The notes beneath the pieces are model-generated. The model saw nothing but the letters and a program-made list of their open reading frames with translations, was not told the origin of the DNA and searched no databases. Positions 2,593-38,096 of a stretch of DNA of 38,096 nucleotides are shown here, piece by piece. The translations under genes were made by a program, and so were the position numbers. Source of the DNA: an uncultured Anaerolineaceae bacterium (GTDB taxonomy: Bacteria > Chloroflexota > Anaerolineae > Anaerolineales > Anaerolineaceae); assembly GCA_927443345.1 (NCBI GenBank), contig CAKMKJ010000067.1:1-38096 (forward strand). Direction: 5' to 3'. Each line of letters starts with the position of its first letter. The stretch's first letter is position 1.

Positions 2593-2666
2593 GGGCGGTT
2601 AGCTCAGTTGGTTAGAGCGTTGCGTTGACATCGCAAAGGTCGTAGGTTCGAGCCCTATATCGCCCA
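2593..2666 (+). tRNA. tRNA-Val(GAC)
   Basis: It folds as a standard cloverleaf. The acceptor pairs GGGCGGT with ATCGCCC and the discriminator is A. The D-arm is GCTC..GAGC, the anticodon stem is TTGCG/CGCAA with loop TTGACAT (anticodon GAC) and the T-arm is GTAGG-TTCGAGC-CCTAT. CCA is not encoded. The 3' half is duplicated downstream (see 2706-2895). Confidence 0.96.
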
Positions 2667-2676
2667 CTTATTATTT

Positions 2677-2704
2677 AGCTCAGACAAAAGTCTGGGCTAT
2701 TTAT
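2677..2704 (+). terminator. Rho-independent terminator of tRNA-Val
   Basis: AGCTCAGAC-aaaa-GTCTGGGCT forms a 9-bp stem with one G-U pair, followed by ATTTAT. The same hairpin recurs at about 2772-2793 and 2867-2888; the last copy is followed by a longer T-run (ATTTTTA). A diverged version lies at 2945-2972. Confidence 0.75.
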
Positions 2705-2705
2705 A

Positions 2706-2895
2706 TCGCAAAGGCCGTACCCCCTGAAGGGGGTTATAAGGGTCGAGCCCTATATCGCCCACTCATTATTTAGCTCAGACAAAAGTCTGGGCTATTTATA
2801 TCGCAAAGGTCGTACCCCCTGAAGGGGGTTATAAGGTTCGAGCCCTATATCGCCCACTCATTATTTAGCTCAGACAAAAGTCTGGGCTATTTTTA
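2706..2895 (+). repeat. Two tandem 95-bp units: tRNA-Val 3' half with hairpin insert plus terminator
   Basis: Units span 2706-2800 and 2801-2895. Each begins with TCGCAAAGG(T/C)CGTA, the tRNA-Val sequence from the 3' side of the anticodon stem. A 20-nt insert (CCCCCTGAAGGGGGTTATAA) then interrupts the T-stem. The rest of the T-arm and acceptor follows (GGTTCGAGCCCTATATCGCCCA), then the same terminator hairpin as the real tRNA. The parent segment from 2631 has a 75-bp spacing to the first unit; 75 plus the 20-nt insert gives the 95-bp period. The units differ at very few positions and cannot encode a functional tRNA because the 5' half is missing. Confidence 0.9.
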
Positions 2896-2932
2896 GATCC
2901 AAAGACTACCATTTCTTCCTGATTTATCGCCC

Positions 2933-2974
2933 AATTCGATATAAGCCTGGACTCTTGTCTAGGCTTATTACAAC
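2933..2974 (+). repeat. Degenerate fourth copy: acceptor 3' end plus terminator-like hairpin
   Basis: TTATCGCCCA is followed by a hairpin ATAAGCCTGGAC-tctt-GTCTAGGCTTAT (12 bp, one G-U). It matches the end of the 95-bp units, but with base changes on both arms that keep the pairing. It looks like an older copy of the same tRNA 3'-end/terminator module. Confidence 0.55.
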
Positions 2975-3024: not shown

Positions 3025-3276
3025 AATAAACTAGGCAATGACCGGGACGAGTATTTGGTCCAACACAGAAAGTGGAGATCATCGGCTGAAAGTCTCTACA
3101 CACCGCCAGAGAAAACCACCCGCGAGCTTTTTCCTGAACAATCCATAAATGGATCTAACTAAGGAAAACGGATGACCCCGATAAAGGTTAAACGAGATCA
3201 CGGCGCGCAAGCGTCCGCGAATCTGGGTGGAACCGCGAGAGTCTAATCTCCCGCCCCAGTGCTGGGGCGGGTTTTT
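3025..3276 (+). ncRNA. T-box riboswitch (tRNA-Thr-sensing leader of thrS)
   Basis: The leader begins with a Stem I-like ACCGGGACGAGTA segment (AGTA S-turn motif). It carries the conserved T-box GGGTGGAACCGCG at 3225-3237 and ends in a strong intrinsic terminator at 3250-3276 (CCCGCCCCA-gtgc-TGGGGCGGG-TTTTT). The UGGA of the T-box would pair with a tRNA 3' UCCA end, implying a U discriminator. By family knowledge, uncharged tRNA-Thr stabilises the antiterminator and permits thrS transcription. The specifier codon is most likely ACC at 3175-3177, just before the CCCCG that could close the base of Stem I, but I could not fold the RNA, so this is tentative. Confidence 0.92.
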
Positions 3277-3341: not shown

Positions 3342-5126
3342 ATGGCAACAAAGAATAGTGAACAATATGAAGCAAGTATGCTCTACAAGGTGAGGCATTC
3401 TACCGCCCACGTGATGGCTCAGGCTGTGCTCGAGAAATTCCCCACCGCCAAAATCGCCATCGGTCCCGCCATTGAAGAAGGTTTTTATTATGATTTTGAT
3501 CTTCCCAGACCGCTAACCCCTGAAGATCTTGAAAATCTTGAAAAACGGATGCGTGAAATCATCAAGTCTGATGAACGATTCGAACGACGTGAAGTGAGTG
3601 CCGATGAAGCACGCAAGATTTTCCATGACCAATCATACAAAATTGAATTGATTGATGGTCTTGAATCTGGAAATTTAGATGAGGATGGAAACCCGACCGA
3701 CGAAAAAACTGTCATTTCCACCTACACTCAGGGTATTTTCACCGATCTTTGCCGCGGACCTCATGTTGAATCTACTGCTCAAATTGATCCTCAAGCTTTG
3801 AAACTGCTGAATGTCGCCGGTGCTTATTGGCGTGGAGATGAAAAACGACCCATGCTGCAGCGCATCTACGGCACAGTCTGGAATAACGCAGAAGAACTCA
3901 AAGACTACCTGTGGCGAATTGAAGAAGCCAAAAAACGCGACCATCGCAAAATCGGCCAGGAATTGGACTTGTTTAGTTCCAATGATGAAATCGGCGCCGG
4001 ATTAATTCTGTGGCATCCCAAAGGTGCAAAAATCCGCAAGTTGATTGAAAACTTCTGGTCTGAAGAACATGAAGCCAATGATTATGACTTTGTTTATACG
4101 CCACACATCGGCAAGGCTCAACTTTGGGAAACCAGCGGCCATCTCGGCTTTTATAAAGAGAACATGTATTCACCCGTTGAGATTGACGGACAGCAGTACT
4201 TCTTAAAACCGATGAACTGCCCCTTCCATCTGCATATTTATAAAACCTCGCTTCGTTCTTATCGCGACCTTCCGCTCAGGTATGCTGAAGAGGGCACTGT
4301 CTATCGATATGAGCGCAGCGGTGTGATGCACGGTTTGATGCGAGTGCGCGGTTTTACCCAGGATGACGCCCACCATTTCTGCCGTCCTGACCAGATGCCT
4401 GGTGAAATCGATTTTGTGCTGAGTTTCAGTTTGCATATTCTCAGAAGTTTTGGCTTTACCGAAATCAACGCCTATCTCAGCACCAAACCCGAGAAATCGG
4501 TTGGCAATCAAGAACAGTGGACTGCAGCCGAAGATGCTTTGGAAGCGTCATTAAAACGTGCTGGCGTTGTCTATCAGGTGGATGAAGGCGGCGGTGCATT
4601 TTACGGCCCCAAGATTGACCTGAAGGTGAAAGATGCGATTGGCCGTGAATGGCAATTATCGACTATCCAATTTGATTTCAATTTGCCAGAACGGTTTGAC
4701 CTCACCTATATTGGTGAAGATGGTCAACCTCACCGTCCGTATATGGTACATCGTGCATTACTGGGCAGCCTCGAAAGGTTCTTTGGCGTTTTGATCGAGC
4801 ATTATGCCGGAGCATTTCCGGTATGGTTGTCACCCGTTCAGGCTGTGCTCATCCCGATCTCTGACAGGCATAACGACTATGCCAATTCGGTTGCCAAGAA
4901 GCTCAAAGAGAAGGGCATCCGTGTGACCGTGGACGAGCGCAGTGAACGCATGAACGCCAAAATCCGCGACGCGCAAAACCAGAAGATCCCTTACATGCTG
5001 GTGGTGGGTGACAAAGAAATGGAAAACGGTCAGGTTGCTCTACGCATGCGCAACGGTGAAAACCCGGGAGCGATCGACCTTGAAGCTTTCATCCAACAAG
5101 CACTTTCTGATATCGAAAAGAAATAG
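3342..5126 (+). CDS. thrS: Threonyl-tRNA synthetase, form lacking the N-terminal TGS domain
   Basis: Class II aminoacyl-tRNA synthetase that charges tRNA-Thr in the cytoplasm. The 594-residue protein opens almost directly with the editing domain: HSTAH (the HxxxH site) near residue 20, and CRGPH further on. The catalytic core follows with MNCPFH (zinc-binding Cys), motif 2 region RYERSGVMHGLMRVRGFTQ, a DEGGGAFYGPKIDL segment, and motif 3 HRALLGSLERFFGVLIEHY. The anticodon-binding domain is C-terminal (PVQAVLIPISDRHNDYA onward). Typical bacterial ThrRS is about 640 residues with an N-terminal TGS domain; here TGS is absent. The ATG is preceded by GGAGG at 3331-3335. Expression is controlled by the T-box leader upstream. 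Confidence 0.97.
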   Translation: MATKNSEQYEASMLYKVRHSTAHVMAQAVLEKFPTAKIAIGPAIEEGFYYDFDLPRPLTPEDLENLEKRMREIIKSDERFERREVSADEARKIFHDQSYKIELIDGLESGNLDEDGNPTDEKTVISTYTQGIFTDLCRGPHVESTAQIDPQALKLLNVAGAYWRGDEKRPMLQRIYGTVWNNAEELKDYLWRIEEAKKRDHRKIGQELDLFSSNDEIGAGLILWHPKGAKIRKLIENFWSEEHEANDYDFVYTPHIGKAQLWETSGHLGFYKENMYSPVEIDGQQYFLKPMNCPFHLHIYKTSLRSYRDLPLRYAEEGTVYRYERSGVMHGLMRVRGFTQDDAHHFCRPDQMPGEIDFVLSFSLHILRSFGFTEINAYLSTKPEKSVGNQEQWTAAEDALEASLKRAGVVYQVDEGGGAFYGPKIDLKVKDAIGREWQLSTIQFDFNLPERFDLTYIGEDGQPHRPYMVHRALLGSLERFFGVLIEHYAGAFPVWLSPVQAVLIPISDRHNDYANSVAKKLKEKGIRVTVDERSERMNAKIRDAQNQKIPYMLVVGDKEMENGQVALRMRNGENPGAIDLEAFIQQALSDIEKK

Positions 5127-37757: not shown

Positions 37758-37830
37758 GCGGGCGTGGTTCAGTTGGTAGAATGTCTCCTTGCCAAGGAGA
37801 AGGTCGTGGGTTCGAATCCCATCGCCCGCT
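37758..37830 (+). tRNA. tRNA-Gly(GCC)
   Basis: 73 nt. The acceptor pairs GCGGGCG with CGCCCGC and the discriminator is T. The anticodon stem TCTCC/GGAGA holds loop TTGCCAA (anticodon GCC). The T-arm is GTGGG-TTCGAAT-CCCAT. CCA is not encoded. A partial copy of its 3' half lies downstream. Confidence 0.96.
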
Positions 37831-37836
37831 CTAACT

Positions 37837-37863: not shown

Positions 37864-37951
37864 TAACCCTGTGGGTTTGAACACCCCTGCGGGGTACAGT
37901 TGTCTCATCGCCTGCTCAACCAAAAATAACTTGTAAAAGTCTTTTTTGTTT
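37864..37951 (+). repeat. Degenerate copy of the tRNA-Gly 3' half plus terminator, with hairpin insert
   Basis: ACCCTGTGGGTTTGAA matches tRNA-Gly GGTCGTGGGTTCGAA (37802-37816). A hairpin (ACCCCTGCGGGGT) is inserted in the T-arm. TCTCATCGCCTGCTCAACC then resembles TCCCATCGCCCGCTCTAAC of the tRNA end, and AAAAATAACTTGTAAAAGTC resembles the tRNA's terminator. It has the same architecture as the units downstream of tRNA-Val at 2706-2895. Confidence 0.7.
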
Positions 37952-37972
37952 CCCAACCTGTTACCAAAAGTT

Positions 37973-38045
37973 CAAAAGTGGACACGTTTAAAGATGAAAA
38001 GTGGACACTCTGGTAAGAAAGCGAATTAACGATCAAAAGTGGACT
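37973..38045 (+). repeat. Three AAAAGTGGAC repeats, probable end of an IS21-like element
   Basis: CAAAAGTGGACACG (37973), GAAAAGTGGACACT (about 37996) and CAAAAGTGGACTCC (about 38034) are spaced 23 and 38 bp apart. Multiple AAAAGTGGAC boxes upstream of istA are typical of the left end of IS21-family elements, where the transposase binds. The element itself would continue beyond the window. The gene is not visible here, so this is a pattern-based call. Confidence 0.5.
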
Positions 38046-38096
38046 CCACGGAATTTTGAGGATGGCATTGTAAACGAATAAACCATCTTGCGATCA

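Follow-up and report, generated by a model that had tools for sequence, protein, structure and literature searches.

Behind an intact tRNA-Val(GAC) gene of an uncultured Anaerolineaceae bacterium, the 3′ half of the same tRNA recurs in tandem, each recurrence being split by a short hairpin. What are these units, and are they more than one local accident? We analyzed the locus in a window of 38,096 nt, the whole stretch of DNA under study (contig CAKMKJ010000067.1), and compared it with the rest of the genome, its relatives and other Chloroflexota.

The tRNA-Val(GAC) gene is followed by its terminator and then by two 95-bp units, each consisting of tRNA positions 37–76 plus a terminator (Table 1). 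As stated in the original prediction, made from the sequence alone, the two units are nearly identical, differing at 2 of 95 positions when compared in one phase (2695–2789 versus 2790–2884), and both lack the 5′ half of the tRNA, starting at position 37, in the anticodon loop. Both also carry the 20-nt insert CCCCCTGAAGGGGGTTATAA, which splits the T-stem between positions 51 and 52; the small palindrome ACCCCCTGAAGGGGGT is at 2719–2734 and 2814–2829. Palindromes of this class are in weak excess in the window, with eight found against 4.2 expected and three of 100 shuffles reaching eight. The left arm of the window units, here termed X, is 15 nt long, versus the usual length of about 11.

The predicted fourth, decayed copy had a more complicated fate. 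Within the window alone it is not significant, its score being matched by 124 of 1,000 shuffles (53 of 1,000 with milder scoring), but it is supported through genome G001, whose most distal Val copy matches both the fourth-copy stretch and a unit of the window (0 of 1,000 shuffles in each comparison). The Val array is common to genomes G000 and G001, with two and four units, respectively, as read by eye from the alignment. On the 3′ side of the array, positions 3029–3261 resemble a T-box leader (83.6 bits, just below the gathering score of 93), and the ORF downstream of it (3342–5126) perhaps encodes a threonyl-tRNA synthetase, judging from its position and the T-box.

Table 1. Coordinates of the two tRNA-tail loci in the window
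Feature	Position	Strand	Basis
Intact tRNA-Val(GAC), parent of the array	2593..2667	+	ARAGORN; Rfam RF00005, 68.3 bits
Terminator hairpin no. 1 (AGCTCAGAC-AAAA-GTCTGGGCT)	2677..2698	+	Sequence; same hairpin in last unit z −6.6
Unit 1, left arm X (tRNA positions 37–51)	2705..2719	+	Sequence; repeat family D2
Unit 1, hairpin insert H (CCCCC TGAA GGGGG TTATAA), between T-stem positions 51 and 52	2720..2739	+	Sequence
Unit 1, right part Y (T-stem position 52 to discriminator)	2740..2761	+	Sequence, repeat
Terminator of unit 1	2772..2797	+	Sequence, repeat
Unit 2, left arm X	2800..2814	+	Sequence, repeat
Unit 2, hairpin insert H	2815..2834	+	Sequence
Unit 2, right part Y	2835..2856	+	Sequence, repeat
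Last terminator	2867..2894	+	Folding z −6.6 versus shuffles
Fourth 3′-end-plus-terminator copy, decayed, no insert seen	2925..2969	+	Via G001 orthologue
tRNA-Gly(GCC), parent of the second case	37758..37831	+	ARAGORN
tRNA-Gly T-arm copy, left part, decayed (edge by eye)	37868..37882	+	Whole copy scores 25.0 versus shuffle maximum 20.7
Hairpin insert (ACCCCTGCGGGGT + ACAGTTGT) before position 61 (class 2)	37883..37903	+	Sequence
tRNA-Gly 3′ end copy and decayed terminator	37904..37951	+	0/1000 shuffles

A second case in the window, behind tRNA-Gly(GCC), had also been proposed and proved genuine: no shuffle in 1,000 equaled the tRNA-Gly copy, which carries ACCCCTGCGGGGT at 37883–37895, with its insert at the opposite end of the T-loop from that of Val. 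The window closes with an IS-end-like sequence, TGTTACCAAAAGTTCAAAAGTGGACACG (37955–38096), which occurs at nine places in the genome (including L342 and L345); at eight of them the fetched stretch ends no more than 170 bases away, and three come directly after the tRNA-Gly, tRNA-Cys and tRNA-Asn flanks.

Reading the 3′ flanks of tRNA genes by eye, we found 3′-end copies with inserts behind at least about 10 tRNA genes of this genome (Val-GAC, Lys-TTT, Lys-CTT, Gly-TCC, Gly-GCC, Cys, two Met, Arg-CCT and Ser-CGA), some of them decayed; behind Pro-GGG, the copy carries an insert of another kind. For Lys-CTT, three units lie at a contig end, with further units at the end of a second contig. At one contig end (G000 contig C19, 8639–9078), the Lys-CTT units switch strand, an inverted junction that is either real or an artefact of assembly. 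When the 3′ ends of 126 tRNA genes from six genomes were compared with their own flanks, 27 rows scored at least 24, against a shuffle maximum of 20.7 (one shuffle per gene, with G015, G003 and G007 sampled in part); at least one of the 27 rows (Ala, L148) is a neighboring tRNA and is not counted as a copy. The occurrence of insert-bearing copies behind so many tRNA genes here, and in relatives, indicates that the Val array is not one local accident. Units similar to those bearing CCCCCTGAAGGGGG, the motif originally suggested as a search key, do exist elsewhere, but CCCCCTGAAGGGGG itself is only the local version, the hairpins varying by tRNA and by species.

In the commonest type of unit, the insert lies between positions 53 and 54 and consists of a hairpin with a five-base tail, mostly TGATA. 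From 15 aligned sequences of this type we built a covariance model, R1, whose matches show the insert position and tail consensus partly by construction and which says nothing on the frequency of other insertion points. Over 79 loci of 30 genomes, R1 gave 148 matches, 103 of which have a tRNA on the same strand within 1 kb upstream, representing 18 tRNA species; several of the other 45 lie at contig ends. The copies have a sharp left edge about 11 nt before the insert. When first copies were compared with their parents at 54 loci, mismatches occurred at position 42 in 48 loci, at 43 in eight, at 44 in four, at 53 in none and at 54 in one. This edge lies outside R1, so its sharpness is not built into the model, whereas the insert position is. 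Other insertion points are 51|52 (the window Val units), 55|56 and 56|57 (Pro) and 60|61 (Cys and Gly-GCC), a variability that weakens the idea of a fixed cleavage in the T-loop (an 11-7-11 recombinase core).

Arrays contain from one to at least six units of approximately 54–110 bp, which directly adjoin and, within one array, are often almost identical. The terminal partial unit ends inside the hairpin insert, H, in six of 43 arrays. Among the 28 loci with a well-kept last copy, a shuffle-based test found the trailer repeated after that copy in 18 and absent in 10, indicating that the duplicated tract is not uniform; it also overturned our initial impression, based on 26 of 43 loci without a trailer match, that the units are always inserted cassettes. 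A different structure was seen by eye at L306 (G066:C190, about 293–327), where a tRNA-like sequence of full length, probably a pseudogene, carries a hairpin insert in its T-loop.

Among the genomes searched, these units have a narrow distribution. R1 matched 40 of 121 relatives (E 0.05, strict filters), with 36 in the same family, three in family f12 and one, weak, in f7 (E 0.043). Across 301 Chloroflexota genomes (E 0.001, strict filters), the 17 positives all belong to two families of the same order. A strict pattern returned seven stretches from a public genome collection; four are Anaerolineaceae, Anaerolinea sp. or Chloroflexi records with tRNA-tail copies, and the other three (Bacillota, Terriglobia and Acidimicrobiia), with no tRNA in the fetched stretch, look like chance, so that a wide spread beyond the lineage was rejected. 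A contig end truncates the sequence at 13 of the 56 array loci with a parent tRNA, and arrays thus coincide with assembly breaks; they are not merely assembly artefacts, because the single-contig genomes G047 and G256 also contain R1 matches.

The same insert can be found behind different tRNAs and in different genera. The 20-mer TCCCCATTGAGGGGATGATA is present at six loci, in two genomes of two genera, and the 20-mer TCCCATCGAGGGATGATA at four loci in four genomes. For Arg-CCT and Lys-CTT, the hairpins of G000 and G001 differ, and the insertion point is the same or within one base. A pattern for H yielded 53 matches in 13 array-bearing genomes and none with the reversed control; 46 of them are in tRNA-tail copies, six are not (L261, L265, L273, L288, L291 and L292, some of which are perhaps chance matches) and L289 is doubtful. 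A second pattern, covering the right junction, matched in 20 of 151 genomes, with no match for its control. Of its 30 loci we read eight, seven of which contain a hairpin copy, in some cases with a longer interior, and L324 has neither hairpin nor tRNA; in none of these eight did we see a full-length element with H as its ends. Long H interiors holding further hairpins occur in G076 and at L323. At a tRNA-Met locus, a 66-bp unit of G000 is exactly absent from G013, with a far-side flank 95% identical, which represents the gain or loss of one unit, in either polarity.

The origin of the arrays can be read in several ways. Plain replication slippage, in which tRNA tails duplicate by chance and the hairpins come from template switching at T-arm palindromes, would agree with the near identity of units within arrays, with the repeated trailer in 18 of the 28 testable loci and with the six arrays that end inside H. 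It does not, however, predict a single left edge, one insert behind different tRNAs and across genera, or limitation to one order. Because the copies have inserts in common, begin sharply some 11 nt ahead of them and are confined to one lineage, the data point to a specific process, and we consider slippage very improbable. A functional RNA is also unlikely, though much less so: on this view, transcription of the units behind the tRNA would yield T-arm RNAs carrying an additional hairpin, which might serve, for instance, as a processing signal, a decoy for a tRNA enzyme or a small RNA. The tail and T-loop are conserved, and hairpin and T-stem pairing holds in 88.9% of the cells of 125 distinct sequences, a level reached by none of 500 shuffles, although these counts partly reflect the differing parent tRNAs and an alignment fitted by the model. 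In the T-stem itself, position 52 is altered in 18 of 54 first copies (other positions in 0 to 8), and the 52–62 pair is newly broken in 21 of 56. The T-arm-plus-insert segments of the window, unlike the terminator hairpin (z −6.6), are no more stable in folding than their shuffles (z 0.03 for Val and 0.40 for Gly), decay is evident in several copies and 81 of the 121 relatives have no R1 match under strict filters, all of which argues against an RNA role. The only Rfam match to unit 2 is SpF41 (RF02435), at chance level (22.2 bits versus a gathering score of 52, E 0.75). This family resembles the units in its hairpin near the acceptor strand and T-arm and in the terminator that comes after them, but differs in possessing its own acceptor stem and in the location of the hairpin, before the T-stem. 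Pneumococcal F41, a tRNA-like sRNA of Streptococcus, is expressed and pulls down RNase Z, according to the available parts of two reports (PMC7196914, PMC3395615).

The copies might otherwise be attachment sites left by integrative elements that use the tRNA 3′ end, with H as the left arm of the element, and in Dehalococcoides, of the same phylum, the ssrA 3′ end recurs as numerous direct repeats, with an adjoining conserved 15-bp motif and T-loop insertion (PMC3146451, in the part available). A tyrosine integrase (PF00589, 7e-21) adjoins the copies at L111, in the same region as L092; at L108, an Anaerolinea sp. record, hairpin copies of the Arg-CCT type are beside ORFs that by eye are phage-tail-like, with no tRNA found in 8 kb; and at L095 and L219 the anticodon loop is where the hairpin copy itself sets in, as would be the case for an att core, H being within the att-like half. 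In most copies, nevertheless, H is flanked by tRNA sequence to its left and right, and the short units adjoin with nothing between. Pure att remnants fit less well for this reason, and we regard this explanation as quite unlikely. Four loci (L092, L095, L181 and L219) are remote from tRNA genes and adjoin att-like halves, and three of them (L092, L095 and L219) are accompanied by repeated GTGCAATTT-like motifs; no integrase was recognized by eye in the ORF lists of L181, L194 and L219. At L181 and L092, the hairpin copies are preceded by an att-like tRNA 3′ half that starts in the anticodon loop and carries no H, a layout suggesting old arrays that were moved off their tRNA by integrative elements using an anticodon-loop site. 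A phage attP carrying H was a further candidate; in viral contigs, one H pattern gave no stretches and another gave two, which are one identical sequence without a tRNA, and the candidate was rejected.

We favor, with a probability of roughly 0.47, the interpretation that the tRNA-tail hairpin repeats come from a small palindrome, H, that spreads among T-arms in a manner tied to duplication of the tRNA tail, the gene remaining intact upstream, and that they are selfish or by-product DNA. Among the readings offered in the original prediction, a small palindromic element that targets tRNA ends indeed fits best, given that inserts of shared sequence occupy T-arms downstream of many tRNAs and across numerous genomes, and integration or excision fits less well. 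H is a hairpin with a stem of a C-run and a G-run and a short tail, usually TGATA, residing in the T-arm of downstream 3′-end copies, and each unit has the form X-H-Y, where X usually comprises the 11 or so nt of tRNA that precede the insertion point and Y the remaining tRNA, often with part of the trailer or terminator copied as well. H would pass from tRNA gene to tRNA gene, its arrival being coupled to a tail duplication that starts about 11 nt upstream. An insert in the T-arm would destroy a tRNA, so only events leaving an intact tail upstream would survive; duplication of the tail does this, which favors a spreading palindrome combined with duplication. The working tRNA would then stay upstream and the tagged copy drift, and arrays would lengthen or shorten by recombination or slippage between units, which would be selfish or by-product DNA rather than working tRNAs.

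That H is mobile between tRNA genes, and that an enzyme is responsible, we infer from sequence comparison; the most natural guess for such an enzyme would be a site-specific recombinase cutting at the insertion point. A RAYT/HUH transposase was rejected as the mover, since Y1_Tnp, present in 50 of 61 genomes with or without arrays, does not track them, and G018 has arrays and no Y1_Tnp at E 1e-5. A bolder form of the palindrome reading, unlikely in our opinion, is that H constitutes a class of minimal mobile element, of about 20 nt and parasitic on tRNA genes, that inserts in T-arms by a reaction that also copies the tail and so spares the host gene, repeated rounds giving rise to CRISPR-like arrays in two families of the order. 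If the palindrome interpretation is right, the tRNA 3′ flanks have been littered across a lineage by something that is neither an ordinary att scar nor a REP, pointing to a new recombination or retro-copying activity on T-arms or, alternatively, to a novel group of tRNA-derived RNAs. The biology of the arrays is directly testable in cultured Anaerolineaceae.

We found no description of these arrays in the literature searched (open-access PMC), and the known systems each share only some of their properties. The att sites of tRNA-targeting elements are 3′-end repeats that flank an element, whereas the units here directly adjoin within arrays. In REP/RAYT systems, short palindromes with a conserved short flank are dispersed between genes; H with its TGATA-like tail is likewise a palindrome with a conserved short flank (the tail partly by model construction), but 46 of its 53 matches sit in tRNA copies instead of being dispersed intergenically. 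The tyrT tandem repeats of Escherichia coli (rtT RNA) lie behind a tRNA gene and each contain a tRNA 3′ end, and, unlike the present arrays, they occupy one locus, have longer units and are not known to carry a T-arm hairpin. Among organelle mobile palindromes, we know of none with tRNA-tail duplication. The repetitive hairpin elements of sponge mitochondria are also small hairpins that invade genomes, although, in the available part of the source, those of organelles (PMC2800124). Partial copies of tRNA 3′ ends are likewise known as tRNA fragments that result from the integration of mobile elements (PMC9897764), for which the available part of the source describes no hairpin insert, sharp pre-insert edge or tandem arrays. 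Among the literature found, the nearest published case appears to be the ssrA repeat system of Dehalococcoides, as presented in the available part of PMC3146451. It belongs to the same phylum and shows many 3′-end copies downstream of an RNA gene, a conserved non-RNA motif just upstream of each, and T-loop insertion; there, islands lie between the repeats, many of them with a serine integrase, whereas the Anaerolineaceae arrays consist of units of approximately 54–110 bp, behind many tRNAs, with tRNA sequence flanking the motif on both sides.
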